This document shows, piece after piece, positions 16,612-63,925 of a stretch of DNA of 64,000 bases. The position numbers and the translations under genes are program-made. The notes beneath the pieces are model-generated. The model was not told the origin of the DNA and ran no database searches. It saw only the letters and a program-made list of their open reading frames with translations. The DNA is from Actinomadura bangladeshensis (GTDB lineage Bacteria; Actinomycetota; Actinomycetes; Streptosporangiales; Streptosporangiaceae). The stretch covers positions 62,001 to 126,000 of the forward strand of contig NZ_SMJW01000001.1 in assembly GCF_004348335.1 (NCBI RefSeq). Reading direction: 5' to 3'. Position 1 is the stretch's first letter. Every line of letters starts with the position of its first letter.

Positions 16612-16662
16612 CGACAGGTCTGACCGGCTGACTGCCTGCCACTAGGAGAACCAGGACACACA

Positions 16663-24675: not shown

Positions 24676-24681
24676 GGGCGA

Positions 24682-47912: not shown

Positions 47913-49057
47913 GTGTCCTCCTTGGAGTGGTTGGCGAGGACGAGCGTCGCGGCCGAGGTGAAGATGCCGCCCACTCCCTGCACGACGCTGAGTTCTACGC
48001 CGTCCACCTGGCGGTACGCCTCCCCGCGCAGTTGCCGGACGGACTCCTGGATCGCGAACATGCCGTACATGCCGGTGTGCGTGTAGCAGAGGCCGCCCCC
48101 GTTGGTGTTCATCGGCAGGGGACCACCGGGGGCCGTGTTGCCGTCCGCCACGAAGGCACCGGCCTCGCCGCGGCCGACGAATCCGAGGTCTTCCAGCCCG
48201 AACAGCGGCACATGCGCGAACGGGTCATAGATCATCAGATGGTCGACGTCGGCGACGGTGATACCGGCCTGGACGAAGGCCCGGCGGCTCGACTCGCGGA
48301 AGGCTCTGGAGGAGGTCAGGTCCTCCATGTGGGCGACCAGCGGACTCTCTCCCGCCTCGCCCGCACCCAGCAGATGGACGGGCGGGCGCGGCAGATCAGC
48401 GGCACGTTCGGCTGAGGTCACCACCAGGGCTGCCCCGCCGTCGGTCACGGGGCAGCATTCCAGCTTGTGGAACGGCCAGGCGACGACCCTGGAGGCCAGC
48501 ACCTCCTCGACAGTGGCCTCCTTGGCCCGCCATGCCCTCGGGTTGCCGTCCGCCCAGCGGCTCTGCACGGCGGGAACCGCGGCCATCTGCTCGCGCGTGG
48601 TTCCGGTCTCGTGCAGGAAGCGCAGGGCGGGGAGGGTGAAGGCGGTGACCGCGCCGCGCACACCGTACGGGGCCTCGAACTGGCGTGGCATGGAATCGGG
48701 CGGTGTGCGCCGGGACGGCCGCCCGATCCGCGACCGCCCGGATTCGCCGTGGAGCACCAGCACGATGGAGCACAGCCCCGCGTCGATGGCCGCCGCCGCG
48801 TGGGCGACGTGCACCAGGAATGAGCAACCGCCCACGCTGGTGCCATCGTGCCAGGACGGATCGACGCCGATGTGGTGCGCGATGTCGATCGGCGAATGCC
48901 AGGCGGTGGCGATGCCGTCCACATCGGCCGGGGTCAAGCCGGCGTCGGCCAGCGCCAGGGCGGCCGCGCGGGCATGCAGATCCGGCTCGGACAGATCGGG
49001 CACGACGCCGATGTCGGTCTCCGCGGCACCGGCGATCGCGACCCCCCGCCGCCTCAT
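47909..49057 (-). CDS. Thiolase-fold lipid-transfer protein (Ltp2-like)
   Basis: 382 residues of the non-condensing thiolase/SCP2 type: GVAIAGAAETDIGVVPDLSE, SVGGCSFLVHVAHAA, ECCPVTDGGAALVVTS, GNTAPGGPLPMNTNGGGLCY and SVRQLRGEAYRQV. It is coupled to a DUF35 gene (ATGA), the Ltp2-ChsH2 retro-aldolase arrangement of steroid side-chain catabolism. This is the second such pair in the window and is not a close copy of the first. Confidence 0.9.
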   Translation of the reverse strand: MRRRGVAIAGAAETDIGVVPDLSEPDLHARAAALALADAGLTPADVDGIATAWHSPIDIAHHIGVDPSWHDGTSVGGCSFLVHVAHAAAAIDAGLCSIVLVLHGESGRSRIGRPSRRTPPDSMPRQFEAPYGVRGAVTAFTLPALRFLHETGTTREQMAAVPAVQSRWADGNPRAWRAKEATVEEVLASRVVAWPFHKLECCPVTDGGAALVVTSAERAADLPRPPVHLLGAGEAGESPLVAHMEDLTSSRAFRESSRRAFVQAGITVADVDHLMIYDPFAHVPLFGLEDLGFVGRGEAGAFVADGNTAPGGPLPMNTNGGGLCYTHTGMYGMFAIQESVRQLRGEAYRQVDGVELSVVQGVGGIFTSAATLVLANHSKEDT

Positions 49058-49476
49058 CGGCGTTCCTCCGGCACCGGCTGGAACAAGGGCAGCGCCTGGT
49101 CACCGCGCGGCTCGAAGACGACCTCCAGCGGCATGTCCAGGGGAAGGGCCCGCGGATCGGGTGGCACGTTGACGAGATTGGTGATCATGCGCGGGCCTTC
49201 ATCCAGTTCCACGATCGCGATGACGTAGGGAACGTCGTCCGCGAACCCCGGGGCGGGGACATGGTTGATGACGTACGAGCTGAGCCGGGCGTGTCCGCTC
49301 ACGGTGGTCCATTCCAGCCGCGGCGAGCCGCAGAAGGGGCAGCCGATGCGCGGGTAGAACACGTGCTCGGCACAGTCCTCGCAGCGCTGGAGACGCAGCT
49401 CACCGGCTCTGGTGCCGTCCCAGTAGGGCTGCGTGGCCGGGGTGGGGACGGGCACCGGACGGGTGTCGGCGGCCAT
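49054..49476 (-). CDS. DUF35 OB-fold zinc-ribbon protein
   Basis: 140 residues with CEDC...CPFCGS zinc ribbon (about residues 32-50), SGHARLSSYVINHVPAPGF and PYVIAIVELDEGPRMITNLV. It is the partner of the overlapping thiolase. The start is 3 bp after the SDR stop. Confidence 0.92.
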   Translation of the reverse strand: MAADTRPVPVPTPATQPYWDGTRAGELRLQRCEDCAEHVFYPRIGCPFCGSPRLEWTTVSGHARLSSYVINHVPAPGFADDVPYVIAIVELDEGPRMITNLVNVPPDPRALPLDMPLEVVFEPRGDQALPLFQPVPEERR

Positions 49477-49479: not shown

Positions 49480-50391
49480 TCAGCCCACCGGGACCGAGTC
49501 CAGGGCGGGCGCGGCGTTCGGCCGGGCCCGTTCGATCAGTGCCGGGAGCACATCGCCGAGTTCGCTCGGGTCCCAGCGTTCGGGGCGGTCGATCGACGGG
49601 CCGGGCCGCCAGCCCTCGGCGACGGTGATCGCGTTGCCTCTGACGCCGAACATGCGGCCCGTGACACCTCGGGAGTGCGGGCTCGCCAGCCACACCACCA
49701 GGGGGGCGATCAGGGCCGGGTCCCGCAGCGGGTCGGCCTCCCGGCCCGCGTAGGTGGAGAGGCCGGCGGTCAGGCGGGACGCCGCGGCCGGGTACACGCA
49801 GTTGACGGTGACGCCGTAGCGTTCCAGTTCGAGCGCGGCGGTGACGGTGAACCCGGCGATCCCCGCCTTCGCGGCGGCGTAGTTGCACTGGCCGGGGTTG
49901 CCGAACAGGCCACTGGACGAACTGGTGTTGATGAGCCGCGCGTCCACCGGTCCGTCCGCCTTGGCACGGGACCGCCAGTGGGCCGCGGCGTGCTGCGAGA
50001 CGGCGAAAGTGCCGCGCAGGTGCACGCGGATGACGTCGTCCCAGTCGGCTTCCGTCATGTTCACCAGCATCCGGTCGCGGAGGATGCCGGCGTTGTTGAT
50101 GACGACATCGAGGCGGCCGAACTCGCGCACAGCGGTCCCCACCAGGCGTCCGGCGGCCTCGTGGTCGGCGATGTCGTCGGTGTTCGCGACCGCGCGCCCC
50201 CCGGTGGCCCGGATCTCCTCGGCGACGAGGGCGGCGGGGCCGGGGTCGGCGCCGGAACCGTCCCGGGCGCCCCCGAGATCGTTGACGACGACGGCCGCTC
50301 CCTGGCGTGCCAGCTCAAGGGCGTACTCCCGGCCGATTCCCCGGCCGGCGCCGGTGACGATGGCCACGCGCCCCTGGCAGATGTCGGTCAT
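49480..50391 (-). CDS. SDR-family dehydrogenase (MFE-2/hydroxyacyl-CoA type)
   Basis: 303 residues. TGAGRGIGREYALELARQGA and VVVNDLGGARDGSG match the 17-beta-HSD4/MFE-2 branch of (3R)-hydroxyacyl-CoA dehydrogenases. NNAGILRDRML, NTSSSSGLFGNPGQCNY and YAAAK are the active site. No MaoC hydratase domain follows, so the hydratase must come from elsewhere. The start overlaps the stop of the dehydrogenase fragment by ATGA. Confidence 0.92.
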   Translation of the reverse strand: MTDICQGRVAIVTGAGRGIGREYALELARQGAAVVVNDLGGARDGSGADPGPAALVAEEIRATGGRAVANTDDIADHEAAGRLVGTAVREFGRLDVVINNAGILRDRMLVNMTEADWDDVIRVHLRGTFAVSQHAAAHWRSRAKADGPVDARLINTSSSSGLFGNPGQCNYAAAKAGIAGFTVTAALELERYGVTVNCVYPAAASRLTAGLSTYAGREADPLRDPALIAPLVVWLASPHSRGVTGRMFGVRGNAITVAEGWRPGPSIDRPERWDPSELGDVLPALIERARPNAAPALDSVPVG

Positions 50392-50648
50392 GACGATGTT
50401 GGTCCTTTCTGGGGTTCCGTTCGCTGGTGGGCAGCCCCGTTGGGAGGGGTGACGAGTCCCGGGTCGGGCTCGACCGGATCGCGGACGCGGCGGGCCCGTG
50501 TGTGCACCGATGCCAGCTCGGAGCCGCTGTCGGGCTCGCTCATCCCGATGGCGAAGAAGCACTCGCCCCGGACGATCGCGGGCAGGAACCGCCGCCGCTC
50601 CGCAGCGCGCGGATCAACGGATCGGGCGGCTGGCGGAGACGGCCTCAT
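50388..50648 (-). pseudogene. Acyl-CoA dehydrogenase internal fragment, still coupled
   Basis: An 86-codon frame. Its middle, RRRFLPAIVRGECFFAIGMS then EPDSGSELASVHTRARRV, is the FAD-binding middle of an acyl-CoA dehydrogenase (the SEPxxGSD block). The first 17 residues and the last 30 (RDPVEPDPGLVTPPNGAAHQ) are not. Start and stop both overlap neighbours by ATGA, so the remnant keeps translational continuity of the operon. It cannot fold as a dehydrogenase. Confidence 0.8.
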
Positions 50649-52132
50649 GATGCGGCGCTCCGGGCCGTCAGGGCGGCGACCAGCGCGTTGCGGTCGAGCT
50701 TGCCGACCGGCGTGAGCGGGAGCCGCTGCATGATCACCACTTCGTCGGGGCGCTTCGGGCCGGCCACCCCGTCCCGGCAGTGCCGGTGGACGTCCGCGGC
50801 GGTGCAGGTGCCGACCACGGCCGCCACCACTCGCTCACCGCGGGCCTGGTCCGGGAGGCCGACGACGCCGACGCCGGCCACACCCGGACACGTCCGGATG
50901 GCGTTCTCGAGGTCGGCGGGATGGATGTTGAAGCCGCCCCGGATGATCAGTTCCTTGCGGCGCCCGGCGATGCGCAAGTGACCGTCGCCGTCAAGGCTGC
51001 CCAGGTCACCGGTGTGCAGCCAGCCGCCGCGGATCGCCTCGGCGGTGGCGGCCTCGTCCCTCCAGTAGCCCGCCATCACGGCGGGGCCGCGCACGATGAT
51101 CTCTCCGATCCGGCCGGGCGGCGCGTCTCGTCCGTCCGGTTCGACGATGCGGACCTCGACCCCCTCGAAGGGGATCCCGACGCTGCCCCTGCGGTGCGGG
51201 CGGGACGGCGAGTCGCCCGCGATCAGCGTGCCCGACTCGGTCAGCCCGTACCCCTCGATCACGCGGACCGGCAGGGCGTCCTCGACGGTCTCGATGAGAT
51301 CGGGCGGGCAGGGCGCACCGCCGACGTAGAGGTTGCGCAGCGAACGCAGTGCGCCCGAATGGACGTGCCCCCGGTCGAGCAGAGCCTGGAGCATGGCCGG
51401 GACGACGTCGGCGACCGTCACCCCCTCCGCCTGCACGGTGGCGGCGAAAGCGTCCGGGGCGAAGCGCCGCCGGACCAGCAGGCGCAGCGGACGCAGGTAG
51501 GTGACCAGGAAGGCGATCAGGCCGAACCCGTGCGACAGGGGAAGGGTGACCAGGCTGACGTCCTCGGGGCCGGCGTCGTCGGCGGTGGCGGCCATCGCGG
51601 CGGCGGCGGTCAGGTTGCGATGGGTGAGCATGACGCCCTTGGACCGGCCGGTGGTGCCGCCCGTGAACAGCACCGCCGCCAGATCCTCTTCGTCGCGCCC
51701 GACCGGGACGGGCTCCGCTTCCACCTCCTTCCACGAGATGTCACCGCCGTCGCCGACCAGCGGGAAGGTCCCGCCTGCGGTGGTGCGGGCCGCCCGCACG
51801 GTCTCCGCGGTGTCCGCGGACACCAGGACGGCGGCGGGTTCGGCGCTGCCCAGGATGTGCGCGACCTCGTCCGGTACCAGGGCCGGCATCAGCGGAGTGA
51901 TCGCGGCACCGGCCCGCCAGATCGCCTCGTAGGCCACGAGGACGTCGACGCCATTGGCCATCATGACCCCGACACGGTCGCCTCGCCGCACGCCCCGCGC
52001 CTGGAGACCGCCGGCGAGCCGGCGGGCCCGCTCGCCGAGCCGGTGGCCGGTCCAGCTCCCCGTGTGGTCGGTGGCCCGGACTCGGTCGCCGTGTCCGGCG
52101 AGGTAGGTGTCGATCAGCTCGACGATGTGCAC
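50645..52132 (-). CDS. AMP-forming acyl-CoA ligase
   Basis: 495-residue fatty-acyl-CoA synthetase-type enzyme. The start is the GTG at 52132 (VHIVELIDTYLAGHG) with GGAG eight bases upstream; the open frame continues far upstream through the SDR and is not real there. The ATP loop LFTGGTTGRSKGVMLTHRNL, VIEGYGLTESG, GGWLHTGDLG and the catalytic Lys in TPVGKLDRNAL are complete. It activates the pathway acid to its CoA ester, consistent with its place early in the operon. Confidence 0.94.
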   Translation of the reverse strand: MHIVELIDTYLAGHGDRVRATDHTGSWTGHRLGERARRLAGGLQARGVRRGDRVGVMMANGVDVLVAYEAIWRAGAAITPLMPALVPDEVAHILGSAEPAAVLVSADTAETVRAARTTAGGTFPLVGDGGDISWKEVEAEPVPVGRDEEDLAAVLFTGGTTGRSKGVMLTHRNLTAAAAMAATADDAGPEDVSLVTLPLSHGFGLIAFLVTYLRPLRLLVRRRFAPDAFAATVQAEGVTVADVVPAMLQALLDRGHVHSGALRSLRNLYVGGAPCPPDLIETVEDALPVRVIEGYGLTESGTLIAGDSPSRPHRRGSVGIPFEGVEVRIVEPDGRDAPPGRIGEIIVRGPAVMAGYWRDEAATAEAIRGGWLHTGDLGSLDGDGHLRIAGRRKELIIRGGFNIHPADLENAIRTCPGVAGVGVVGLPDQARGERVVAAVVGTCTAADVHRHCRDGVAGPKRPDEVVIMQRLPLTPVGKLDRNALVAALTARSAAS

Positions 52133-52146
52133 GTCCGTGACTCCGT

Positions 52147-52947
52147 TCAGAGCATGGGGATGTTGAGGCCGCCGTCGACGACCAGTTCGGCACCGGTCAC
52201 ATAGGACGCCTCGTCGGAGAGGAGGAAGGCCACGCAGCGGGCCACCTCCCATGGGCTGCCGACCCTGCCCAGCGGGATCCGGCCGGCCAGGTCCGGCACA
52301 TGCTCGGCGGGGATCCCCGACAGTGCCCGGCGCAGCATCGTCGAGTCGATGACGCCCGGGAGGACGGTGTTGACCCGGACGTTCATCGGCGCCGCGGTGG
52401 CGGCGGCGTGCCGGGACAGGCCGAGCAGCGCCGCCTTGCTCGTGTCGTACGAGATCCCGGCGCCGCCGGTGCGGTAGGCGTTCAGCGACGACATGTTCAC
52501 CACGGCGCCGCCGCCCGCCCCGGCCATCACCGGCAGTGCGTGCTGGATGGTGAGCAGGTGGCCGCGCACGTTGACCCGCATGATCTGGTCGAAGGTGTCC
52601 GCGGCGGTGTCGGCGACGCTGCCCGCGTCGGCGATGCCCACGTTGTTGACCAGCAGGTTCAGGCCGCCGAACGCCTTGACCGCCGCCGCGACCGCCGCGG
52701 CGCACTGGTCCGGGTCGGCCACGTCGCAGGCAACGGCCTCGGCCCTGCCCCCGGCGCTCCTGATCTCCTCGGCCGTCGCCTCGGCGGCCTCGGCGCGCAG
52801 GTCGGCGACCATGACGGCGGCGCCGTCCCCGGCGCAGGCCAGCGCGGCGGCCCGGCCGTTGCCGATCGGCAGCGGCTCGCCGTCGCGCGGCGGCCCGTCC
52901 GAGCCGCCGCCGATCACCAGCAGCACCTTGTCGTCGAGTCGTCCCAT
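52147..52947 (-). CDS. SDR-family oxidoreductase with extended glycine loop
   Basis: 266 residues. The cofactor loop is long and odd: IGGGSDGPPRDGE then PLPIGNGRAAA replaces the compact TGxxxGxG. NNVG, NMSSLNA and YDTSK are normal, and the end is SYVTGAELVVDGGLNIPML. The loop is probably a family variant rather than a defect, since the Rossmann strands resume correctly (AVMVADLRAE). It lies 14 bp before the ligase start. Confidence 0.9.
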   Translation of the reverse strand: MGRLDDKVLLVIGGGSDGPPRDGEPLPIGNGRAAALACAGDGAAVMVADLRAEAAEATAEEIRSAGGRAEAVACDVADPDQCAAAVAAAVKAFGGLNLLVNNVGIADAGSVADTAADTFDQIMRVNVRGHLLTIQHALPVMAGAGGGAVVNMSSLNAYRTGGAGISYDTSKAALLGLSRHAAATAAPMNVRVNTVLPGVIDSTMLRRALSGIPAEHVPDLAGRIPLGRVGSPWEVARCVAFLLSDEASYVTGAELVVDGGLNIPML

Positions 52948-52971: not shown

Positions 52972-54405
52972 TCAGGCGTGCACGGGCGGGATGCGGCCGG
53001 TCCACGGCATCGCGGCCTCCAGCTGGGACGCGACGCGGATCAGCACGTCCTCGCGGCCGTGCGCGGCGCCGAACTGCACGCCGATGGGCATCCCATCGGC
53101 GGCCCAGTGCAGCGGCAGCGAGATCGCGGGCTGCCCAGTGACGTTGAACGGGACGGTGAAGGCGCTCGCCTCCATGCCGAGGCTGGAGAACGGGTCCTCC
53201 TTCGTGGGCTTGAACAGGCCGAGCGGCGGGGTCTGGCCGGTGAGCGTCGGGGTGAGCAGCAGGTCCCAGCCGTCGTCGGCCCACCACCGCTCGATCTCGC
53301 GGCCCCGCTCGCGGAGCGCGTCGACTCCGGCGGCGTACTGGACGCCGGTGACGGTGCGGCCGACCTCGGTGTAGGCCCAGGTCTGCGGTTCCATGTCGTC
53401 CTCGGAGAGCGGGCGGCCGACCAGGCGGCCGAAGCGCTCGATCTCGCGCAGCACCACCACGCCGACGCAGGGCATGAACTCCATCGGCCAGCTGCCCTGG
53501 CGGAGCACCTCGGGGAACCCGTCCCGCACATCGTGGCCGAGACCGGCGAGGACGTCGGCTACGGCGCGGGCCGCGGCCGCGCATTCGGGATCGACCGCGG
53601 TCTGCCCGGTCGGGTCCTCGGTGAGCACGCCGATGCGGAGCCGCCCGGGGTCGGCACCGACCTCCGCGGCGAACGGGCCGGGCGGTGCCCACGCCCCGAA
53701 GGCGTCGCCCGGCCGGTGGCCGCCGGTGACGTCCAGCAGCGCGGCGCAGTCCCGGACGCTGCGGGTCATCCAGCCCTCGTGCGCCATGCCGGACACGTTG
53801 TCGGAGTCGATCACCTGGGGGCCCTGCGAGACCCGGCCCCGGGTGGGCTTGAGCCCGACGACGCCGCACTTGGCCGCCGGTTCACGGACGGACCCGCCGC
53901 CGTCGCTGCCGTGGGCGACCGGGACCAGGCCCGCCGCGACCGCCGCCGCGGCGCCGCCACTGGATCCGCCGGTGGAGCGGGAGGTGTCCCAGGGGTTGCG
54001 GCAGACGCCCCAGCCGGCGGACTCGGTCGTGGCGACCAGGGCCATCTCGGAGGTGTTGGAGCGCCCGGCCAGGACGAACCCGGCCGCGCGCATCGCCTCG
54101 ACGAAGTAGGTGTCGTGGTCGGCGCGCAGTCCCGCCGCGATGACGCCCTTGATGCCGGCGGCGTAGATGTCGCCCTTGGACGGCATGACCTCCTTGAGGA
54201 GGTACGGGACGCCGCGGAAGGGCCCGTCGGGGGCGTTTTCGGCCTCCGCGCGCGCCTTGTCGGCGAGCGTGACGACGACCGAGTTGAGCTGCGGGTCGAT
54301 CTTGCCGATGCGGGCGAGGGTCTCCTCGACCAGCTCACCCGGGGTGATCTCGTTCCGGCGGACGAGTTCTGCTTGGCCGGTTGCGTCGATGAATGCGTCA
54401 GGCAT
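52972..54405 (-). CDS. Amidase (amidase signature family)
   Basis: 477 residues from MPDAFIDATGQAEL. The Ser-cisSer-Lys triad is visible: Lys in VPYLLKEVM, and the Gly/Ser core RSTGGSSGGAAAAVAAGLVP with HGSDGGGSVREPAA. It hydrolyses an amide, perhaps releasing the acid that the ligase activates. It is the first gene of the region C operon. The 94 bp to the amine oxidase stop hold no motif of the region A type. Confidence 0.92.
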   Translation of the reverse strand: MPDAFIDATGQAELVRRNEITPGELVEETLARIGKIDPQLNSVVVTLADKARAEAENAPDGPFRGVPYLLKEVMPSKGDIYAAGIKGVIAAGLRADHDTYFVEAMRAAGFVLAGRSNTSEMALVATTESAGWGVCRNPWDTSRSTGGSSGGAAAAVAAGLVPVAHGSDGGGSVREPAAKCGVVGLKPTRGRVSQGPQVIDSDNVSGMAHEGWMTRSVRDCAALLDVTGGHRPGDAFGAWAPPGPFAAEVGADPGRLRIGVLTEDPTGQTAVDPECAAAARAVADVLAGLGHDVRDGFPEVLRQGSWPMEFMPCVGVVVLREIERFGRLVGRPLSEDDMEPQTWAYTEVGRTVTGVQYAAGVDALRERGREIERWWADDGWDLLLTPTLTGQTPPLGLFKPTKEDPFSSLGMEASAFTVPFNVTGQPAISLPLHWAADGMPIGVQFGAAHGREDVLIRVASQLEAAMPWTGRIPPVHA

Positions 54406-54499
54406 GAGGCCCTCCCGTGACCGATCTGAATGTTCCGAAGGATGTTCAAGTGACCTGGTCATGTGTACAAATTCAGCATCGAGTGCCGCCTACCGGCTG

Positions 54500-55834
54500 T
54501 CAAGGGGTACCGAGGGCGGCGATGACCTCCGCTGCGGCCCGCTCCCCGGACCGCACCGCGCCCTCCATGTAGTTCATCCAGACCGCGGACGTCTCGGCTC
54601 CCGCCCAGTGGACGCGGTCGAACGGCTCGCGCAGGAGCGGGCCGTAGCGCGTCCACCCGCCCGGTCCGAAGTTGCCGCCGAAGCAGCCCCGCGTCCACGG
54701 TTCGCCCGTCCAGTCGGTCTCCAGGTACTCCGACGGCCGCGCCGCGCGTTCCCCGAAGTACCGGCCGAGCACCTCCAGCACGGCCGCGCGGCGCGCCCCG
54801 GCGGGCAGCCGGGCCAGCGCCCTCGCGTCATCTCCCTGCGAGAAGGCCACGAGCACGCCGTGGGCACCGTCGGGCGGCGAGTTGTCGAAAGTGACCGTGA
54901 CGGGGCCGCGGTCGCGCATCAGGCCGCCGCTCAGTCCCTCGTCCCGCCAGAACGGGGCGCCGTAGAGGCAGTTGATCTTGATGGTCGATCCCGGCGTCAT
55001 CCGCCGGTGGAGGTCGGCGCGCCCGGCCGGCGGCGGCGGGTCGTACTCGATCCGGCCGCCGAGCACGGGCGGGACGGCCACGATCGCGCGCCGGGCGCGC
55101 ACCGTGAGGTCCTCGGCGAGCACCTCCACGCCGTCCGGCGTCTGCCGGACACCGCGGACGGGAGCGCCCAGGCGCAGATCGCCGGGGCCGAGTGCCCCGG
55201 CCAGCCGTACCGAGAGTTCTTGAGCGCCGCCCACGAACCTGCGTTCCTGCGCGCCGCCGGCCACCTCCGTCAGCAGGTCCACCGAACCGGCCGACCGGAT
55301 GTAGGCCAGCACGTGCAGCAGTGACAGCTCCGCCGGCTCGGCAGCGAAGACCGCCGCGGTCACCATGCGCATGACGCCGAACGTGTCCGGTTCTCCGCTG
55401 CTGCGAAGCCAGTCGTCGAAGGGCCGCGCGTCCCATTCGACGGCATGCGCCGCCGCCCAGGGCGCCTCCGGCGGCAACTCCGACGCCATGCGCTCCAGGT
55501 CGGCGAGGAGCCGCTTGGCGCGCTTGTACGCCAGTCGCCCTCCCGCCAGGTCGATGCGCGTCCTGCCCGCGTGGTAGGTGGCGAACGTGGCGACGCCGAG
55601 GTCTCCGGCCAGGACGGCCAGGCGGTCCTGCGTCGGCCCGATGAACTGCCCGCCCGCCTCCACGGCGCCGCCCGGGGCGGGACGGGTCCAGGTCCGGCCG
55701 CCGACCCGGTCGCGCGCCTCGATCACCAGGGGGCGCAGCCCCGCGCGTCGCAGGTCGCGGGCCGCCACCAGCCCGGCCAGGCCCGCCCCGACCACGGCCA
55801 CGTCGGCCGTCTCGTCCCTACTCAGGTCGTCCAC
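54500..55834 (-). CDS. Flavin monoamine oxidase family protein
   Basis: 444 residues. The FAD motif VVGAGLAGLVAARDLRRAGL is followed by EARDRVGGRTWT near residues 40-50, GAVEAGGQFIGPTQ, and C-terminal VHWAGAETSAVWMNYMEGAV. Together these are the MAO signature. It oxidatively deaminates an amine to an aldehyde with H2O2 release. The GTG at 55834 is the best start, overlapping the upstream stop by 17 bp, but its ribosome site is poor. Its place after a dimethylformamidase-like gene suggests it handles an amine product. Confidence 0.9.
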   Translation of the reverse strand: MDDLSRDETADVAVVGAGLAGLVAARDLRRAGLRPLVIEARDRVGGRTWTRPAPGGAVEAGGQFIGPTQDRLAVLAGDLGVATFATYHAGRTRIDLAGGRLAYKRAKRLLADLERMASELPPEAPWAAAHAVEWDARPFDDWLRSSGEPDTFGVMRMVTAAVFAAEPAELSLLHVLAYIRSAGSVDLLTEVAGGAQERRFVGGAQELSVRLAGALGPGDLRLGAPVRGVRQTPDGVEVLAEDLTVRARRAIVAVPPVLGGRIEYDPPPPAGRADLHRRMTPGSTIKINCLYGAPFWRDEGLSGGLMRDRGPVTVTFDNSPPDGAHGVLVAFSQGDDARALARLPAGARRAAVLEVLGRYFGERAARPSEYLETDWTGEPWTRGCFGGNFGPGGWTRYGPLLREPFDRVHWAGAETSAVWMNYMEGAVRSGERAAAEVIAALGTP

Positions 55835-58109
55835 CTCCGTGGATGGTGTCGCGGTCGGGCCCGCACAACGGCTCGCCGGAAGCGAAGGCCCTGAGAACGT
55901 TGTCGGTGATGCGGGAGATGTCGTTGTCGTAGCCGTTGTGGGCGAGCGCGCCGCACCAGGCGATGGAGCCGGTCGAGAAGACGGCGCCCCCGTTCGGATA
56001 GGGCACCAGCACGAGATCCGCCTTGACCGGCCAGTCCGCGGCCCCGATGGGAATGTCGGAGGGGTCCGACTCATAGGACGAGGAGTGGTCCGAGGGCGAC
56101 GACGAGGCCAGCACGGCCGCGCCTTCGGGGGTGCCCAGTGCGGTGTCGGCCCGGTCGACCTCGTATCCGGCGGCACCGTGCTGCTGGACCAGGGAGGGAT
56201 GGTCCCCGAGGAGATCGTGATCGTCCGCGATCCCCTCGAAGACGAACGCAACGTCGGGTTCGCGGCTGCGGGCACTCCGCCGGTAGGGCGCCGCACGGTC
56301 GTAACCGGCGGCCGTGAAACCCACTCCGACAAGTCCCTGCGGAGGTCGCCCGCGGTGCCGCCAGATCCCGCCCGGCTCACCGGTCGTGCTGAGGTGTCCC
56401 TCGCCGGGGCCGGCCGCCCACGCGCGGGCTCCCGCGGTGCGGCGGACCTCGATGACGTGGGGCTCTTCAGGCGAATACGACGTCACCCAGTAGAACCCGT
56501 TGCCCCCGAGGTACATCACCCGTCCGCCGGCGCGGAGATACGCCTGCACGGCGTCGAGCATCCGTTCCGACCAGTACTCGGCATGCGTGCCGATGATGAC
56601 GACCTTGTAGGGCGACAGGAGTTTCGCGCCCTCGCGGTGCAGGATCTCGTCGGTGAGGATGTCGGCCTCGTGCCCCTTGTGGCCGAGCCAGTGCGTCAGG
56701 TGCAGGTCGGCCGGGAGCAGGTGCGGATAGCTGGGAACGTTCTCCCACCTCCCCGGGACGTCGGGGAACTTGAGCCGCACCTTCGGCCGCATCGTGAGGT
56801 TCGGCCGCAGCCGCGACGAATAGCACGTCCCGCTGCCGTCGTCGTGGACGTCGTACAGGCTGAGCAGCCTCATCTCCAGTTCGCCCGGCCGCAGCGGCTC
56901 GCCCTGGTCCTCCCAGGACTGGGTGGCCGCGAGGTTGGCGTAGGCGAGATAGGTCGTGCTGGGGACGAGGTAGGCGATGTCGGAATCCGCCGTGCCCGGC
57001 CTCGGGCGGACGAAGAACGGAACGTGATCCTCGGCGGTGGACGTCCGCAGCCGCGCCGCGTAGATGCCGCTCGGCAGATCCGGCGGCAGCACGAGTTCGA
57101 CATCGGTCTCCCACCCCGCGTCGGTGAGGTCGTCGTCGTGGAAGTGGATCGCGCCGTACTCCCCGGGGGCGCGGTGGAAGACCGTCTCCCGGCCCGTCCA
57201 GTTCCACCCGGTCATCCCCCGGGCGGGCGTGTTCACCGTCCGGCCGTGGAACTGATTCGGGGACAGGTCGATCACGTCCCGCGTGCCGGGCCGCAGCGAG
57301 AAGTCCCATGCCGCGACCAGGCCGTCCGCACGCGCTCCGGCGGCGCCGGCGCGAGCGGACACCTCGATCGCCTCGGCGCCGAGCGGGACGCCGTAGAGGC
57401 GAGGTGCGTCGATCTTGCCGTTGAAGACCGCCGCGACCCGGCGCCCGGCGTCGTGACCCGCGATGATCAGGCGCGCTTCGTTCGGCGCCGGCCCTGGGAT
57501 CGGAGCTTCGACCGCGGCCGTGGAACCGTCGCCCGGCCACCGCACCAGCGCGGTCTGACTCACCCGGACCCTTCCGGTCCCGGAGTCGTAGGACGCCGAG
57601 ACCAGATGCCACCGGCCGGCGCGGAGCGGACGCCCGGTGCCGACCCGCTCGACCGTCTCACCGTCACCGGCCCAGAACTGCGCATCGCCGTCCGCGCCGA
57701 TGAACAGCCCGTACCCTCGGGCCCCGTCCCATTTGGTCAGGAGGCCCTGGACGCCCTTGGCGGGTTGCGTCGGCAGCACCCAGGCATGGAGCGTGATCGC
57801 GCCGACCAGCCGCAGCAGCGGATGGTCGGCGACCTCGACGCAGGACCCGAAGTTCAGCGGCTGTTCCCGGCCGGGGTACTCGCCGGCGGCCGGGCACTCC
57901 AGTTCGGCCTCCAGGAAACCGGGGCCGGCGGGGTTCTCGTCGCCGTGCAGCAGCCGGACCAGGTCGAAGCCGAACCTGGAGGCGGTGCAGCTGACCTTGA
58001 AGGCGACGGTCTCGCCCGGGGCGGCCGTCATCGGGTCGCTGTATCCGACGATCTCGGTGGCGCGCAGTTCACCGTCGAAGGTGATGCGGTCCCGCACCTC
58101 TTCGGACAT
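55818..58109 (-). CDS. N,N-dimethylformamidase large-subunit-like protein
   Basis: 763 residues, start MSEEVRDRITFDG with GAGGAGGG upstream; the length matches DmfA2 (about 760). An N-terminal beta domain and a LamG/concanavalin-like domain (about residues 110-290: GAITLHAWVLPTQ, SYDSGTGRVRVSQT, FNGKIDAPRLYG) are followed by the catalytic amidohydrolase-like part. Candidate iron ligands of the family (two Tyr and one Glu) lie in STTYLAYANL, LLSLYDVHDDG and IGTHAEYWSERM; the assignment is mine. No small-subunit gene is seen nearby. It hydrolyses a C-N bond, but the substrate in a sugar-uptake operon is unlikely to be DMF itself. Confidence 0.85.
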   Translation of the reverse strand: MSEEVRDRITFDGELRATEIVGYSDPMTAAPGETVAFKVSCTASRFGFDLVRLLHGDENPAGPGFLEAELECPAAGEYPGREQPLNFGSCVEVADHPLLRLVGAITLHAWVLPTQPAKGVQGLLTKWDGARGYGLFIGADGDAQFWAGDGETVERVGTGRPLRAGRWHLVSASYDSGTGRVRVSQTALVRWPGDGSTAAVEAPIPGPAPNEARLIIAGHDAGRRVAAVFNGKIDAPRLYGVPLGAEAIEVSARAGAAGARADGLVAAWDFSLRPGTRDVIDLSPNQFHGRTVNTPARGMTGWNWTGRETVFHRAPGEYGAIHFHDDDLTDAGWETDVELVLPPDLPSGIYAARLRTSTAEDHVPFFVRPRPGTADSDIAYLVPSTTYLAYANLAATQSWEDQGEPLRPGELEMRLLSLYDVHDDGSGTCYSSRLRPNLTMRPKVRLKFPDVPGRWENVPSYPHLLPADLHLTHWLGHKGHEADILTDEILHREGAKLLSPYKVVIIGTHAEYWSERMLDAVQAYLRAGGRVMYLGGNGFYWVTSYSPEEPHVIEVRRTAGARAWAAGPGEGHLSTTGEPGGIWRHRGRPPQGLVGVGFTAAGYDRAAPYRRSARSREPDVAFVFEGIADDHDLLGDHPSLVQQHGAAGYEVDRADTALGTPEGAAVLASSSPSDHSSSYESDPSDIPIGAADWPVKADLVLVPYPNGGAVFSTGSIAWCGALAHNGYDNDISRITDNVLRAFASGEPLCGPDRDTIHGGGRPE

Positions 58110-58123
58110 GTCCGTATCCCTCC

Positions 58124-58963
58124 TCACCCGCGCAGGGTGCTGACGTAGCCCTTCATGGCCGTGCGCTGCATGAACGCGTAGCCGGCCAGCACCGGGGCGA
58201 GTGCGATCAGCGTGCTGGCGAAGATCAGCGGCCAGTCGGCGGAGAACCTGCCGACCAGGGTGTAGACCGCCACGGGCAGGGTCACCCGGTCGGTGCCGCC
58301 CACGACCACCAGCGCGACGAAGAAGTCGTTCCAGACGAACAGGCCGGTCAGCGCCGCCACCACCCCGGTGGCCGGGCGGGCCAGGGGGAAGACGATCCGC
58401 GCCAGGATCCGCAGGGACGAGGCACCGTCCACCCGGGCGGCCTCCTCGTAGGCGGCCGGCAGCCCCCGGATGAACCCCGCGTACAGGAAGACGGCCAGGG
58501 GTGTCTGCAGCCCCAGGTAGACCAGGATCAGCCCGGCGCGCGTCCCGGCCAGCCCCGTGTCCACGAGGAACACGTACAGCGGGATGACGCCGAGCTGGAT
58601 CGGCATGATCATCGCGAGCATGAACAGGCCGGACAGCAGCCCCGACAGCCGGGACGTCCGGCGGGCCAGCACGTAGCCGGCGGGCGCGGCCGTGAGCACG
58701 AGCAGCAGCACCACCACCGCCGTCGTCAGGACGCTGTTGAACAGGGCCTGGCCGAACGAGACCGTGCCTCCGCCCGCCTGCTCCCAGGCCTGGGCCAGGT
58801 TGGCGGTCGTCGGGCTCGACGGCGGCGCGAACGACGAACCCGCCGCCTCGCCCGGCGTCTTGAACGCCGTCGTCACGACGAAGTAGATCGGCATCAGCAC
58901 CGGGATCGCCGCGACCCACAGGCCGGCCTCCCGGAACGCCGTCCATCGCGAGTACCCGTGCAT
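58124..58963 (-). CDS. Carbohydrate ABC transporter permease (MalG-like)
   Basis: 279 residues with six membrane helices. The EAA loop EEAARVDGASSLRILARIVFP is of the MalG/CUT1 kind. The start shares TGATG with the upstream permease stop. FFVALVVVGGTDRVTLPVAV is the usual MalG end region. Confidence 0.94.
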   Translation of the reverse strand: MHGYSRWTAFREAGLWVAAIPVLMPIYFVVTTAFKTPGEAAGSSFAPPSSPTTANLAQAWEQAGGGTVSFGQALFNSVLTTAVVVLLLVLTAAPAGYVLARRTSRLSGLLSGLFMLAMIMPIQLGVIPLYVFLVDTGLAGTRAGLILVYLGLQTPLAVFLYAGFIRGLPAAYEEAARVDGASSLRILARIVFPLARPATGVVAALTGLFVWNDFFVALVVVGGTDRVTLPVAVYTLVGRFSADWPLIFASTLIALAPVLAGYAFMQRTAMKGYVSTLRG

Positions 58964-59901
58964 CACCGGCTCCTTGAGCGCAGCAGGCGCACCTGCACGA
59001 AGCAGACGGCGAACACCAGGGCGACCAGCAGCAGGGCGACCGCCGCGCTGTAGCCGTACCGGCCGGTGACGAACGCCTGCTTGTAGACGTAGGTTCCGAG
59101 CGTCTCGCTGGCTCCGGACGGCCCGCCGCCGGTGAGCGCCATCACCTGGTCGAACGCCATGAACGCGAGGATCGTCGACAGGACCGTGCCCACCATCACC
59201 GAGGGGAGCAGCAGCGGCAGCGTGACATGGCGGAAGGACCGCCAGGCCCCGGCGCCGTCCACCGCCGCCGCCTCCAGCACCTCGGTCTGGACGCCCTGGA
59301 GGCCGGCCGTGTAGATCAGCATGTGCAGGCCGGAGAACTGCCACACCATCACCACGACGACCATCAGCAGAGCGGTCGCCGGGCTGCCCAGCCACGGATG
59401 CGCGGCGGCCCCCAGGCCGCCGGCCCGGAGCGCCTCGTTGAGCGGGCCGCCGGCGTCCAGGATGTACTTCCACACGTAGGCGACCACGAGCGGGCTCACG
59501 ACCGCCGGGAGGAAGAACACGGTCCGCAGCACGTTGCGGGTCCTGAGCGAGCGGGCCAGCCCGAGCGCCAGGCCCAGCCCCACGGCGTTCACCCCGACCA
59601 CGTAGAGGACGGTCAGCACCATGGTGTGGAGCAGGACGCCCCGGCCCTCCGGCTCGGTCAGGAACTCGCGGAAGTTCCCGAGCCCTGTCCAGCCCGGTGA
59701 CGTCAGGCCGTCCCAGTCCGTGAACGCGTACCCCGCGCCGAGCAGCGACGGTCCCAGCAGCAGCCCGAAGCAGAGCAGGGTGGACGGTATGAGGAACGAC
59801 ATGGGCACCCGGTGGACGGCGCGCCGCCGGCGCCCGCCGGCAGCGCGCCGCCGGGCCGGGGCCGCCCGGTGCCCTGCCCTCAGGGCGCCGTGGGCGTCCA
59901 C
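58963..59901 (-). CDS. Carbohydrate ABC transporter permease (MalF-like)
   Basis: 312 residues from the GTG at 59901 (overlapping the binding-protein stop by 22 bp); a shorter start at MSFLIPST (59802) is possible. An Arg-rich cytoplasmic head precedes six membrane helices. The EAA loop is LEAAAVDGAGAWRSFRHVTLP, and GPSGASETLGTYVYKQAF is typical of CUT1 MalF-like subunits. No ATPase gene is present in the operon, so a shared MsiK-type ATPase elsewhere must energise it. Confidence 0.9.
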   Translation of the reverse strand: MDAHGALRAGHRAAPARRRAAGGRRRRAVHRVPMSFLIPSTLLCFGLLLGPSLLGAGYAFTDWDGLTSPGWTGLGNFREFLTEPEGRGVLLHTMVLTVLYVVGVNAVGLGLALGLARSLRTRNVLRTVFFLPAVVSPLVVAYVWKYILDAGGPLNEALRAGGLGAAAHPWLGSPATALLMVVVVMVWQFSGLHMLIYTAGLQGVQTEVLEAAAVDGAGAWRSFRHVTLPLLLPSVMVGTVLSTILAFMAFDQVMALTGGGPSGASETLGTYVYKQAFVTGRYGYSAAVALLLVALVFAVCFVQVRLLRSRSR

Positions 59902-61154
59902 GCCTCGTCCATTCCCTTGAGGACGCCCTCCGGCGTCTCCTTGCCGAGGAGCAGCTTGGTCATGCCGCTGTCCAGGCGCGTCCCGACCTCTGGGTTCAGC
60001 CAGTTCTGGTCCATGATCGGGGCGGTCTTGCCGGCGGTGAGGTAGAGGGTGAGCGCCTCGGCGTAGTCGGGCACGCCCGGGTCGTCCTTGCTCGCGGGAA
60101 TGCCGGGGATGCTGTCGTCGATCTCGCTGTACCTGACCCGGTTCTCCGCGTAGAAGTCGAGGAACTTGCGGGCGAGGTCGCGGTTCGCGGCCTTCCCGGG
60201 GACGGCCAGACCGCTCACGGGGGCTGACGGCACGCGCACCGCGGACGGGTCGTCGCCGCCCGGGAAGGCGAACATCGCCAGGCGCGCCTCTGGGTCACCG
60301 GCCATGAACAGCGGCATCGTCGCCGTCGGCGCGATCGCCATGAGCGACTTCCCCTGGCCGAGGGAGCGGGCGGCGGCCTCCTGCGACACACCGGTGGCGC
60401 TCTTGTCGAAGCAGCCCTCGTCCTTCATGGTGGAGAACCGTTCGATCGCCTTCTTCCAGCCAGGTGTGCCGGCGAACGTGGTCTCGCCCTTCACCCGCTG
60501 CTCGCCCGCCCGGGGGTTGTCGGCGAAGACGGTCGAGGCGGCGAGCGCGAAGACCGCCCAGCGCGCCATGGCGGACCCCTGCTGAGCGCCGAAGGCGAAC
60601 GCGACCGTGCCGTCCCCCGCGGTCTCGCGGCAGATCGCCAGCACGTCCCCGAACGTCTCGGGGACCCGCAGGTCCCGCTTCTTGAAGGTCTCCGGGTTGT
60701 AGAAGACGCCGATGGACGTCGAGTCGACCGGCAGCGCGTAGGTCTTGCCCTCCTTCTTCGACACCGCCGCGCCCGGACCGGTGACCAGGTTCGTCCAGGG
60801 CGCCCCGCTGAGATCGGCGACCAGCCCCTTGTCGGCGAGCACGAGGACATTGCCCGCGTCGCCGTAGCCGAGGAGCATCCGGGCCACGTCCGGCACCCGG
60901 TTACCGCTGAGCTGCCTGCGCAGGGTCTCCGAGTACTGCGTGTACGGGGTCTTCTGCACGGTGACCTTGACTCCCGCGTTCGCCTTCTCGAACTCGGCGG
61001 CCGCCGTGTCGAGGGGATCCTTGCCCTGCCCGGTGTCCCACGCCGCGACGCGGAGTTCGCCGTCGCCGCCGGAGCCGGCGCCCCCGCAGCCGGCCGCCAG
61101 GAGCAGCGACGCCGACAGGGCCAGAGGCAGGAGCACACCGTTCGATCTCGTCAT
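59880..61154 (-). CDS. Sugar ABC transporter solute-binding lipoprotein
   Basis: 424 residues. A signal peptide MTRSNGVLLPLALSASLLL ends in the lipobox LAAGC. The family-1 (MalE/UgpB) pattern follows: LRVAAWDTGQGKDPLDTAAA, FEKANAGVKVTVQKTPY and PFPGG-type C-terminal lobe. ATGA overlap with the rhamnosidase upstream. It should capture a rhamnose-containing oligosaccharide or glycoside for the adjacent permeases. Confidence 0.93.
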   Translation of the reverse strand: MTRSNGVLLPLALSASLLLAAGCGGAGSGGDGELRVAAWDTGQGKDPLDTAAAEFEKANAGVKVTVQKTPYTQYSETLRRQLSGNRVPDVARMLLGYGDAGNVLVLADKGLVADLSGAPWTNLVTGPGAAVSKKEGKTYALPVDSTSIGVFYNPETFKKRDLRVPETFGDVLAICRETAGDGTVAFAFGAQQGSAMARWAVFALAASTVFADNPRAGEQRVKGETTFAGTPGWKKAIERFSTMKDEGCFDKSATGVSQEAAARSLGQGKSLMAIAPTATMPLFMAGDPEARLAMFAFPGGDDPSAVRVPSAPVSGLAVPGKAANRDLARKFLDFYAENRVRYSEIDDSIPGIPASKDDPGVPDYAEALTLYLTAGKTAPIMDQNWLNPEVGTRLDSGMTKLLLGKETPEGVLKGMDEAWTPTAP

Positions 61155-63925
61155 GGCCGCGTTCCTTTCGAGGTGAGGTGGAGGCGGTGGGTGCCGCCGC
61201 CCACGGTCAGGACGAGCTCGTCGCCGTCGTGCCGCGAGAAGGGCACGGGGACGCCGTCCTTGGTGAGCCGGGGGTCGCCGAGGCCGCCGCAGGGCAGCCG
61301 GATCTCCGCCTCGGCGGACGGCGGGACGGTGAGCGTCACGTGCAGCCCGCTCGCGTCGGCCCGCCAGTCGATCGCCGCGTCGCCCCGGACGGTGCGCACC
61401 CGCGCACGGGCGTGGGTGAGGCGGTGGGTGAGGCTGGGCCGGACGAGGATGCGCCGCCAGCCCGGAGCCGCCGGGGTCAGCCCCGCGACGTCGTTGTAGA
61501 GGAACTTCTCGATCATCGCCAGCAGCTTCATGTTGCGGCTGAACGTGGGGTCGCCGCCCCAGGTCTCCCAGATGGTGGTGGCGCCCCGCTCCACCTGGTC
61601 GCCCCAGCTGGGGAAGGTCGTCCGGGTGGCGATCTCGTACATCGTCTCCGCCGCCCCGCCGGTCAGCACGTGCTGCAGCGCGGCGGTGCCCATCGTCCCG
61701 GTGGAGAGGTGGCCGCCGTCGCGGGCGATCTCCTCGATCAGCCCGGACAGCGCACGGTCGCGATGCTCGTCGGGGACGAGCCCGAACCACAGCGGCATGG
61801 CGCAAGAGGTCTGCGAACCGGTGGCGTAGCTCGCGTCGGCCTCGTCGAAGAACCGCTCGTTGAAGGCGCATCGGATGTCCTCCGCCAGCTCCCGGTAGCG
61901 GGCTGCGTCGGCGGTCTCCCCGATCGTCTCGGCCGCGTCGGCGGTCATCGAGGTGACGGCGAAGAACCAGGCGGTGGAGGTCAACTCGACCGGCGTGCGC
62001 TTGGGGAAGACGCTGCACGTCCCGTCCGGCTGCGGCTCCATGTGGTCGCCGAGGCCCTCGGCGACGATGAGGCCCTCCGACCGCGACCTGAGGAACTCCA
62101 CCCCGCGCCGCATCCCCGGGTAGTGCCGTTCGAGGATGGTGCGGTCGCCGTAGAAGCGGTACAGGTTCCAGGCGATGCTCGGGTACGACGTCATCGCGAA
62201 GTCGGGCTGCGCTCCGTAGGGCCAGTACATGACGTACTCGAAGTCGTCGGGCACGTCGTAGCCCTCGGGCGCCTCCATCGCGATCTTGCCGCGCCAGTGG
62301 ATCGGGCAGATCAGCGGGAAGCGGCCGTCCGGGAGCTGGGTGTCGGCGAGGTCGTCCAGCCACTTGAGCCAGAACCGGGCCGCGTCGAAGTCGTACAGGT
62401 AGTCCTCGACCGCCCAGCCCGGGTCACCGACCCAGCCGACCCGCTCGTAGCGCTCGGCGGCGTCCTGGGGGAAGCCCTGGAAACTGGTGCGCAGCGTCCA
62501 CAGTACGTTGCGGTGGATCTTGTTCAGGAGGGCATCGGAGCAGGTGAACTCGCCCGCCTCCGGCAGGTCGGAGTGGACGACCCGGCCCTCGGCCCCGAGC
62601 ACCGCCGTCTCGGGACCCGGCGTCGTGATCTCGACATGGCGGAAGCCGTGCAAGGTGAACCTCGGCTCCCAGACCTCCTCGCCCTCTCCCTTCAGGACAT
62701 AGGTGTCGGTCTGCCGTGCGGGGAGCCAGGCGTTCATGTTGGCGTCGTCGTCCGGCTCGCCGTCGCCGGTGAGTTCCCCGAAGTGCCGCAGGACGACTTC
62801 CGCGCCGGCCGGACCGGATACCCTGACCCGGGTCCAGCCCGAGAAGTGCTGGCCGAAGTCGGCGATCACGGCGCCGTCCCGGCCGGTCAGCGTGCGCACC
62901 GGCGCGAGCGTCTCGACCACACGGACCGGCTGGAGGAGCTGGGCGGTGAGGCGGGCCTCCGGCGGGTCGACGACGGTGACGGGAGCCCAGGCGGATGCGT
63001 CGAAGCCGGGCGCGTCCCAGCCCGGGGTCTCGCGCCGGGCGTCGTAGCGCTCGCCGTGGCCGTAGTCGTTGTAGGTGATGGCACCGGGCCCCGTCCGCCA
63101 GCCCTCGCCGGTGGCCACGACCGACCGGCGGCCGTCCGACGTCTCGATCTCGATCTGGAGCAGGGCGCGCGGCCGGTCTCCGTAGGGCGTTCGCGGCATC
63201 GGGCCGGGACCGACGTCCGCCTCGGCGCTGTACCAGCCGTGTCCCAGCATCAGCCCGGTCGCGTTCGCCCCGGGCTTGAGCAGGCCGGTGACGTCGTAGA
63301 CGGAGTAGAGCACCCGCGGATCGGGGATGCGCGCCGGCTTGCCGTCGCCGTCGTACAAATCGGGGTCGTGGTCGTAGGAGGTGTTGGCCGGGTCGAGCAC
63401 CCGGTCGCCGACGCGCTCACCGTTCAGCCGGAGCTCGTAGCAGCCGAGCGCGGCGACGTAGGCGCGGGCCCGCCGGACGTCGCCCGGCACGTCGAAGCCG
63501 GTGCGCAGCAGCGGGGAGGAGACGTCCGCGCCGCCGCCGATCCAGCGGGCCTCCCAGCCGGCCGGATCGAGCAGGCCCGTCTCGAAGCTCGCCGCCGCGG
63601 CGAACGGGCCGGGTCCGGCACCCTCGCCCCAGAGCCGGACGGTCCACCAGTACCGCCGCCGGGACGCCAGCGGGGAACCCCGGTAGGAGACGCCGTTCAC
63701 TTCGCCGGTCTCGACGCGTCCGGAATCCCACGCGTCCCCGTCGCCCCGGGCCAGCCGGTCCGGGTCCGTGGCCACCAGCACCTGGTAGGCCCGCTGGGGC
63801 CCGCTGGGCACCCAGCCGAACGCCGGAGCGGCCACGTCGATGCCGAGCGGTTCCTCCAGATGCTCGCATCGCAGCCGGCCGGCGCGCGGGGGCGTCGCCG
63901 GCGTTTCGTCGCGGTGTAGGGGCAT
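61151..63925 (-). CDS. Alpha-L-rhamnosidase (GH78)
   Basis: 924 residues from the ATG at 63925 (GGAG upstream); a start at 63982 lacks a ribosome site. N-terminal beta domains (ARRYWWTVRLWGE style, PRTPYGDRPRALLQIEIE) precede the (alpha/alpha)6 barrel. The general-acid region QDAAERYERVGWVGDPGW lies near residue 495 and the general-base block GATTIWETWGGDP near 787. No signal peptide is visible, so the enzyme is cytoplasmic and works on imported rhamnosides. It is the first gene of the region D operon within the window. Confidence 0.93.
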   Translation of the reverse strand: MPLHRDETPATPPRAGRLRCEHLEEPLGIDVAAPAFGWVPSGPQRAYQVLVATDPDRLARGDGDAWDSGRVETGEVNGVSYRGSPLASRRRYWWTVRLWGEGAGPGPFAAAASFETGLLDPAGWEARWIGGGADVSSPLLRTGFDVPGDVRRARAYVAALGCYELRLNGERVGDRVLDPANTSYDHDPDLYDGDGKPARIPDPRVLYSVYDVTGLLKPGANATGLMLGHGWYSAEADVGPGPMPRTPYGDRPRALLQIEIETSDGRRSVVATGEGWRTGPGAITYNDYGHGERYDARRETPGWDAPGFDASAWAPVTVVDPPEARLTAQLLQPVRVVETLAPVRTLTGRDGAVIADFGQHFSGWTRVRVSGPAGAEVVLRHFGELTGDGEPDDDANMNAWLPARQTDTYVLKGEGEEVWEPRFTLHGFRHVEITTPGPETAVLGAEGRVVHSDLPEAGEFTCSDALLNKIHRNVLWTLRTSFQGFPQDAAERYERVGWVGDPGWAVEDYLYDFDAARFWLKWLDDLADTQLPDGRFPLICPIHWRGKIAMEAPEGYDVPDDFEYVMYWPYGAQPDFAMTSYPSIAWNLYRFYGDRTILERHYPGMRRGVEFLRSRSEGLIVAEGLGDHMEPQPDGTCSVFPKRTPVELTSTAWFFAVTSMTADAAETIGETADAARYRELAEDIRCAFNERFFDEADASYATGSQTSCAMPLWFGLVPDEHRDRALSGLIEEIARDGGHLSTGTMGTAALQHVLTGGAAETMYEIATRTTFPSWGDQVERGATTIWETWGGDPTFSRNMKLLAMIEKFLYNDVAGLTPAAPGWRRILVRPSLTHRLTHARARVRTVRGDAAIDWRADASGLHVTLTVPPSAEAEIRLPCGGLGDPRLTKDGVPVPFSRHDGDELVLTVGGGTHRLHLTSKGTRP

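Follow-up and report, generated by a model that had tools for sequence, protein, structure and literature searches.

Which compound does a long run of catabolic genes in the soil actinomycete Actinomadura bangladeshensis serve to degrade? The run lies on contig NZ_SMJW01000001.1 (assembly GCF_004348335.1; here C111), in a stretch of 64,000 nucleotides (C111:62001-126000) that is referred to below as the window and whose numbering is used throughout. An initial annotation described six minus-strand genes between 63925 and 54500, encoding a GH78 rhamnosidase, the solute-binding protein (SBP) and two permeases of a sugar importer, a dimethylformamidase (DMFase)-like amidohydrolase and a flavin amine oxidase (AOX). 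These families are indeed all present, in genes that overlap or nearly touch (intergenic distances of -4, -22, -1, 14 and -17 bp, where -22 applies to the GTG start of permease 1 and becomes 77 with the ATG start). They make up less than half of a run of 14 genes, however, and the set as first described, correct for its six members, was incomplete without a NylA-type amidase, an acyl-CoA ligase and β-oxidation genes. Read from 63925 to 45718, the order is GH78, SBP, permease 1, permease 2, DMFase-family protein, AOX, amidase, short-chain dehydrogenase/reductase (SDR) 1, acyl-CoA ligase, SDR2, ChsH2-like protein, thiolase-like protein and acyl-CoA dehydrogenases a and b, i.e., eight more co-directional genes follow AOX. 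From these genes and their surroundings the locus is predicted, with a probability of roughly 0.55, to be a catabolic island whose substrate is a glycoside of the 6-deoxy-L-sugar type with an amide-containing aglycone, most likely a lactam; a TetR protein and its operator would control both transcription units.

The amidase, located immediately downstream of AOX, is an amidase-signature (AS) enzyme whose closest solved relative is NylA, the 6-aminohexanoate cyclic-dimer hydrolase of nylon oligomer degradation (3a2p, 551 bits; the next, GatA, reaches 171 bits). The two proteins have the AS fold and the Lys-Ser-Ser triad in common, the latter found here at positions K71, S148 and S172, and are 56% identical over 479 aligned columns. 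They differ in that the operon amidase is chromosomal and is encoded alongside a glycosidase, an importer and an amine oxidase. Amidases of the GH78-linked loci described below are 55.6-56.3% identical to NylA, as compared to 43-46% for eight of nine other AS amidases from the taxonomic family, the ninth being a partial, 246-residue match at 52%. The fork that unites NylA with the operon amidases in a tree has a support of 89/73, which is below threshold. Neither a GH78-clade gene nor AOX was found in the neighborhoods of six of those nine other amidases, and the five amidase matches in plasmid records are all below 48%. In addition, AOX carries the FAD-binding motif GAGLAG and is, by sequence, closest to monoamine oxidase (8p84, 393 bits) and putrescine oxidase (2yg6, 297 bits).

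The substrate of NylA is a man-made cyclic amide, according to the consulted part of PMC11879879, and the consulted part of PMC3676327 places laurolactam and octalactam hydrolases in the NylA sub-cluster. A lactam is favored because the operon amidase is NylA-like and NylA itself is grouped with such lactam hydrolases. The same part of the latter source also assigns to the sub-cluster LibA (linuron) and QsdB, which cleaves N-acylhomoserine lactones, i.e., enzymes of ureas and open-chain amides (PMC3676327). The substrate could then be built on an N-acyl amine of the open-chain kind (a glycosylated fatty-acid amide, for instance). The DMFase-family enzyme, the amidase or both would cleave it, and the amine set free would go to AOX and the fatty acid to the CoA ligase. 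We consider this alternative, with which the acyl-CoA ligase and dehydrogenases of the run and the presence of an N-acetyl-β-amino-acid acylase in the DMFase family are also consistent, to be rather unlikely. The amidase is nearer NylA than are the other family AS amidases and the DMFase-family gene is inconstant across loci, although both points are compatible with an open-chain amide.

The initial annotation had named the lack of co-occurrence in other genomes as evidence against a joint function; the neighborhood was found to recur at nine GH78-clade loci in three genera, i.e., in seven of 65 genomes of the genus and in G227 and G130 (from seven of 298 genomes of the family). AOX is linked (located within about 12 kb of GH78) at eight of the nine loci, the SBP and permeases at eight, the NylA-type amidase (at least 62% identity) at seven, TetR at seven and the DMFase-family gene at five, while a three-gene sugar core of 2-hydroxyacid dehydrogenase, SDR and lactonase is present at all nine. 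The six genes named at first are found in identical order, at 82-94% identity, in G032, G021 and G063, and the set is not a product of chance because the same order recurs in these genomes. Elsewhere the order varies. The operon is compact in the window, G032, G021, G063 and G045, where the last-mentioned has GH78, SBP, permeases, AOX, amidase, SDR1, ligase and two dehydrogenases. In G046 it is divided among split operons within 39 kb, which hold the DMFase-family gene, an ABC ATPase, permeases, SBP, GH78, the sugar block, an aldehyde-dehydrogenase-like gene and TetR, and also the amidase (62%), AOX (54-56%), a hydratase-like gene, dehydrogenases and a ligase. The layout of G227, which belongs to another genus, is split as in G046, with the importer and DMFase-family genes absent from the 39 kb read; at both loci the aldehyde-dehydrogenase-like gene adjoins AOX. 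Yet another arrangement is found in G130, of a third genus. Smaller parts of the sugar block are patchy, the TetR-adjacent SDR not being called in G032 and G035 and the GntR gene not in G045.

Searches for the single genes gave a similar picture. At E 1e-110, AOX was found at 20 places in 19 of the 298 family genomes, and the six best matches (at least 56%) are exactly the GH78-linked loci, the next being at 54%. For the amidase (E 1e-120; 14 of 298 genomes) the five best matches, at least 62% identical, are linked loci and the next is at 49%. Within the genus, AOX (E 1e-125) occurs in six of 65 genomes, all of which are among the seven with GH78 (Fisher p 8e-8, uncorrected for relatedness). 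In samples of 396 genomes from the phylum, GH78 (E 1e-180) and the amidase (E 1e-140) had no match beyond the genome of origin.

The organization of transcription was approached by comparison of intergenic regions. Distances across the 14-gene run are between -22 and +24 bp, with two longer gaps, one of 94 bp upstream of the amidase and one of 253 bp downstream of the acyl-CoA ligase; past the window end, the flank contains a promoter-like element of GH78, a divergent TetR gene and the sugar block. When aligned in five genomes, the TetR-GH78 and AOX-amidase regions display TTGACA-17/18-GATACT and TTGACA-17/18-GATGCT elements, respectively, and the TTGACA of the latter overlaps the AOX stop codon. 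Both regions have in common a 15-base site, CAGGTCRCTTGAMCA, which is found before GH78 and between AOX and the amidase. Near the amidase it is part of a predicted palindromic operator (see the table), whose twin is located between TetR and GH78 at C111:126122-126136, 122 bp past the window end. Because one operator stands before GH78 and again between AOX and the amidase, the sequence indicates at least two, probably co-regulated, transcription units, GH78-to-AOX and amidase-to-β-oxidation. The position of its gene makes TetR the likely binder of the shared operator. The single transcript first proposed is thus plausible for the six genes named then, but not for the whole run, in which the amidase has a conserved promoter-like element of its own and a copy of the same operator. 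Separate transcripts of the two halves had been regarded as an argument against their connection; separate promoters are probable, yet the exact operator is common to both.

Among the nine genomes there are nine exact operator matches, all at TetR-GH78 or AOX-amidase: two each in G000, G021, G032 and G063 and one in G045, where the AOX-amidase copy has three mismatches. Only exact sites were used. Matches with one mismatch number eight in the nine genomes, two of them flanking the 63% TetR of G227. Sites near AOX in G046 (two mismatches) and G227 (three mismatches), found after the fact, are suggestive. Looser patterns were tried on the window and flank and rejected as near chance (with three mismatches, 3 matches vs 0-6 in Markov controls; half-sites with one mismatch, 6 vs 1-4). 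A generic promoter and terminator scan was uninformative because its three terminator-like sites compare with 3.5 expected by chance and no promoter-like site was returned, the amidase element also going undetected.

The shared operator bears on the suggestion that two independent pathways merely adjoin each other, i.e., a deoxysugar-glycoside module with a GntR-type regulator and an amide/amine module with a TetR-type regulator, acting on separate substrates. The separate regulators, the separate operons of G046 and G227 and the occurrence of the sugar side alone in G035 agree with such an arrangement, which we nevertheless regard as quite improbable: the identical exact operator precedes both GH78 and the amidase in the compact loci, and despite the varying gene order AOX accompanies the GH78 clade at eight of nine loci.

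A number of observations weigh against a joint island for a lactam glycoside. One-mismatch operator matches outside the loci are at the level of a reversed control pattern, which gave 24 matches with at most one mismatch, and the exact copies are orthologous sites in related genomes. The G035 locus has GH78, the importer and sugar genes, with AOX and the amidase absent from the 32 kb read and no AOX match in that genome at E 1e-110 or 1e-125; because these genes are kept without AOX or amidase, the glycoside part is, judged from its sequence, able to work alone. In G130, GH78, SBP, permeases and AOX stand beside an amidase and a ligase of merely 30% identity each, and the G045 locus lacks the DMFase-family, SDR2, ChsH2-like and thiolase-like genes. 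The window operon has no aldehyde dehydrogenase gene. Furthermore, G032, G021 and G063 carry two extra acyl-CoA dehydrogenase genes between the ligase and SDR2 (and G063 also a CaiB-type gene), which the window strain has lost from the set: remnants of the first, 121 bp (93% to G063) and 33 bp (88%), are left at 50392-50644 and the second is gone, a scar that may reflect real decay or an assembly error. Finally, the company of QsdB and LibA makes an open-chain amide a possible substrate. As a separate observation, the GH78-importer module of G035 (G035:C1:64000-96000; L133, L134) adjoins genes with adenylation-type domains and one for a 1534-residue protein, resembling a biosynthetic cluster.

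Table. Features of the gene run and its control elements, in window coordinates. A codon-score script, trained on the window together with its flank, supplied the gene calls, so that start codons are provisional; domains were assigned by Pfam searches.
Feature	Position	Strand	Basis
GH78 family glycosidase, 924 aa	61151..63925	-	Bac_rhamnosid6H 264 bits + four other GH78-type Pfam domains
Solute-binding lipoprotein, sugar-type ABC importer	59880..61154	-	SBP_bac_1 98 bits
ABC permease 1	58963..59901 (GTG start 59901 or ATG start 59802)	-	BPD_transp_1 75 bits
ABC permease 2	58124..58963	-	BPD_transp_1 56 bits
DMFase-family mononuclear-iron amidohydrolase, Laminin_G_3 + DMFA2_C	55818..58109	-	DMFA2_C 316 bits; single large chain
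Flavin monoamine oxidase-type enzyme (AOX), GTG start	54500..55834	-	Amino_oxidase 230 bits, full domain
Promoter-like element TTGACA-17-GATGCT before amidase	54475..54503	-	Aligned in five genomes, spacer 17-18; consensus match only
27-bp palindromic operator (predicted) TGTNCANNTGACCNGGTCANNTGNACA, containing shared 15-mer CAGGTCACTTGAACA	54443..54469	-	Intergenic comparison
Amidase-signature enzyme, NylA type	52972..54405	-	Amidase 290 bits
SDR oxidoreductase (SDR1)	52147..52947	-	adh_short_C2 205 bits
Acyl-CoA (AMP-forming) ligase	50645..52141	-	AMP-binding 293 bits
Deletion scar	50392..50644		Relatives with two acyl-CoA dehydrogenase genes at same place (+ CaiB-type gene in G063)
SDR oxidoreductase (SDR2), likely hydroxyacyl-CoA dehydrogenase type	49480..50391	-	PRK07791 subfamily 396 bits, cut-off 373
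ChsH2-like OB-fold/zinc-ribbon protein	49054..49476	-	OB_ChsH2_C + zf-ChsH2
Thiolase-like protein	47909..49057	-	Thiolase_C_1 194 bits
Acyl-CoA dehydrogenase (a)	46737..47912	-	Three Acyl-CoA_dh domains
Acyl-CoA dehydrogenase (b), final gene of run	45718..46740	-	Acyl-CoA_dh_1 + Acyl-CoA_dh_N

Turning to the glycoside part, all five Pfam domains of the GH78 enzyme are above their cut-offs, and the closest solved relative is the α-rhamnosidase 6i60 (532 bits). In its domain set and its segments ERVGWVGD and GATTIWE, in which we take the catalytic residues to lie, the protein resembles the GH78 α-L-rhamnosidases 6i60 and 3w5m (E-R-x-G-W-x-G-D and GATT(I/L)WE). It differs in an atypical loop: DCPQRDER of 6i60 is replaced by DAAERYER in the window and by DAADRAER in G227, G035, G130 and G046 (five of the nine clade members were compared). 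Read by eye, the sequence has no visible N-terminal signal peptide, from which the enzyme is predicted to be cytoplasmic. The adjacent sugar block comprises, after TetR, genes for an SDR, a 2-hydroxyacid dehydrogenase, a GntR regulator, an SDR, an amidohydrolase and Gfo/Idh/MocA, glyoxalase-like and FAH-type proteins. The SDR, the amidohydrolase (L-fuconolactonase-like) and the FAH protein (2,4-didehydro-3-deoxy-L-rhamnonate hydrolase-like) recall the non-phosphorylated oxidation of L-rhamnose or L-fucose, but the two matches, 92.6 and 185.5 bits, are far under the curated cut-offs of 400 and 500, respectively. L-Rhamnonate dehydratase above the NF011968 cut-off is found in none of the nine genomes, with weaker matches in eight and none at E 1e-20 in G021. 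Plain L-rhamnose, the sugar first proposed, is weakened as a candidate by these results, where the search did not extend to the phosphorylated route (RhaA/RhaB/RhaD). Because the GH78 loop is atypical, the likeness to rhamnose and fucose genes is weak and a rhamnonate dehydratase above the cut-off is missing, a 6-deoxy-L-hexose, possibly in modified form, is the probable sugar.

The importer consists of two permeases and an SBP, the N-terminus of which displays a lipobox-like LLAAGC segment (read by eye); its closest solved relative, a xylo-oligosaccharide binding protein, scores a low 73 bits. An ATPase gene is absent from the window operon and present in that of G046.

The DMFase-family protein matches DMFase 6lvb with 484 bits and the N-acetyl-(R)-β-phenylalanine acylase 8huy with 423 bits. 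Its similarity to the DMFase large subunit and the 8huy acylase extends over about 730 residues. The iron-binding residues, two Tyr and one Glu, are conserved, as are an essential His and an essential Asn: Y390, Y419, E511, H509 and N537 align with Y399, Y440, E521, H519 and N547 (residues counted by hand on the alignment). The DMFase large subunit is inactive without its small subunit, as stated in the consulted part of PMC7686228. In the DNA adjoining the operon gene there is no room for a small-subunit gene (14-bp gap upstream, 17-bp overlap downstream), which sets it apart from DMFase. On sequence grounds neither DMFase nor 8huy-type acylase activity is assignable to the protein. The initial annotation took this enzyme for the amide cleaver, a role that fits the NylA-type amidase better (seven of nine loci vs five of nine); the DMFase-family gene is the least constant part of the set, being absent from the G045, G227, G130 and G035 loci, and was ruled out as its defining enzyme. 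The family is expanded in Actinomadura, with a member in 35 of 60 genus genomes. The closest paralogues in other Actinomadura (at most 50% identity) have different neighborhoods, and of 35 DMFase matches 33 lie elsewhere (one, L087, is a 23-residue match without an operon gene), while L053 (A. madurae) and L054 (Actinomadura sp. WMMA1423) are the same locus. On G032:C39 (L094, L095), two more members are found on opposite strands about 9 kb apart, surrounded by ligase-, aldehyde dehydrogenase- and amidase-like genes.

The distal genes offer another view of the aglycone. The ChsH2-like, thiolase-like and paired acyl-CoA dehydrogenase genes presumably resemble steroid side-chain genes. A nitrogenous rhamnoside of plant origin (for example, a rhamnosyloxy-benzylamine or a steroidal glycoalkaloid) could accordingly be attacked by AOX at the alkaloid amine and by these enzymes at the side chain. 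This appears quite improbable to us, given that such alkaloids need no NylA-type amidase and that the ChsH2/thiolase part is missing from the G045 locus.

If the locus is an island for a lactam glycoside, the following route may be envisaged. The lipoprotein SBP and the permeases would take up the intact glycoside, and cytoplasmic GH78 would cut off the sugar, to be oxidized by the SDR, lactonase, Gfo/Idh/MocA and FAH-type proteins. The NylA-type amidase would open the amide, which would result in an amino acid if this is a lactam, AOX would convert the freed amine to an aldehyde, and the acyl-CoA ligase, acyl-CoA dehydrogenases, SDRs and ChsH2/thiolase proteins would carry the acid through β-oxidation. 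The DMFase-family enzyme could be an accessory N-deacylase or a second amidase outside the core step, and the TetR repressor, bound to the shared operator, would govern both units. The steps suggested initially (uptake, removal of the sugar, cleavage of the amide and oxidation of the amine) fit the gene families present; nothing specific speaks for an aminoglycoside-type substrate. In the caprolactam and nylon-monomer pathways a lactam is converted via an amino acid, an aldehyde and a diacid to a CoA ester. The proposed order of reactions is alike, except that a flavin amine oxidase would replace what we take to be a transaminase and that a glycoside importer, GH78 and deoxysugar genes are added.

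A more specific, and doubtful, proposal is that the substrates are fluvirucin-type glycosylated macrolactam antibiotics. L-Mycosamine is the 3-amino counterpart of L-rhamnose, and fluvirucin and the nylon cyclic dimer, which is the NylA substrate, are both 14-membered rings. The GH78 variant would take off the amino-deoxysugar, deacylated where needed by the DMFase-family enzyme, the NylA-type amidase would cleave the macrolactam ring, and AOX and the β-oxidation genes would break down the opened chain. In the consulted parts of the sources, fluvirucins are produced by several Actinomadura strains (PMC10951976) and their sugar is L-mycosamine (PMC11284099). If true, the family of the nylon cyclic-dimer hydrolase would have a setting in nature.

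Elsewhere in the window, positions 1-16641 hold a second large catabolic cluster, with a CoA-ligase-like ATP-grasp protein, acyl-CoA dehydrogenases, an FMO-like monooxygenase, an APH-like protein and a Thiolase_C_1 protein. Genes at 21663-27281 are, judged by their first residues, oligopeptide-type ABC transporter-like, with a GntR-like gene adjoining at 28548, and a predicted 201-residue protein (41650-42255) has no Pfam match at E 0.001.

The initial annotation knew of no described system with this gene set, and none was found in the open-access papers searched, no one of which combines dimethylformamidase with rhamnosidase, or rhamnosidase with amine oxidase, amidase, operon and actinobacteria. 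Nor was a macrolactam degradation pathway (including with amidase, amine oxidase or Actinomadura) found described in the accessible parts of that literature. If the reading as an island for a lactam glycoside is true, the locus would constitute a complete regulated route for nitrogen-containing glycosides, a class for which the literature searches returned no catabolic pathway. With its two operators and a TetR gene, the inducer is directly testable. The locus would furthermore give a close NylA relative a natural operon context and a substrate class that can be tested, and so bear on the role that such hydrolases had before nylon.

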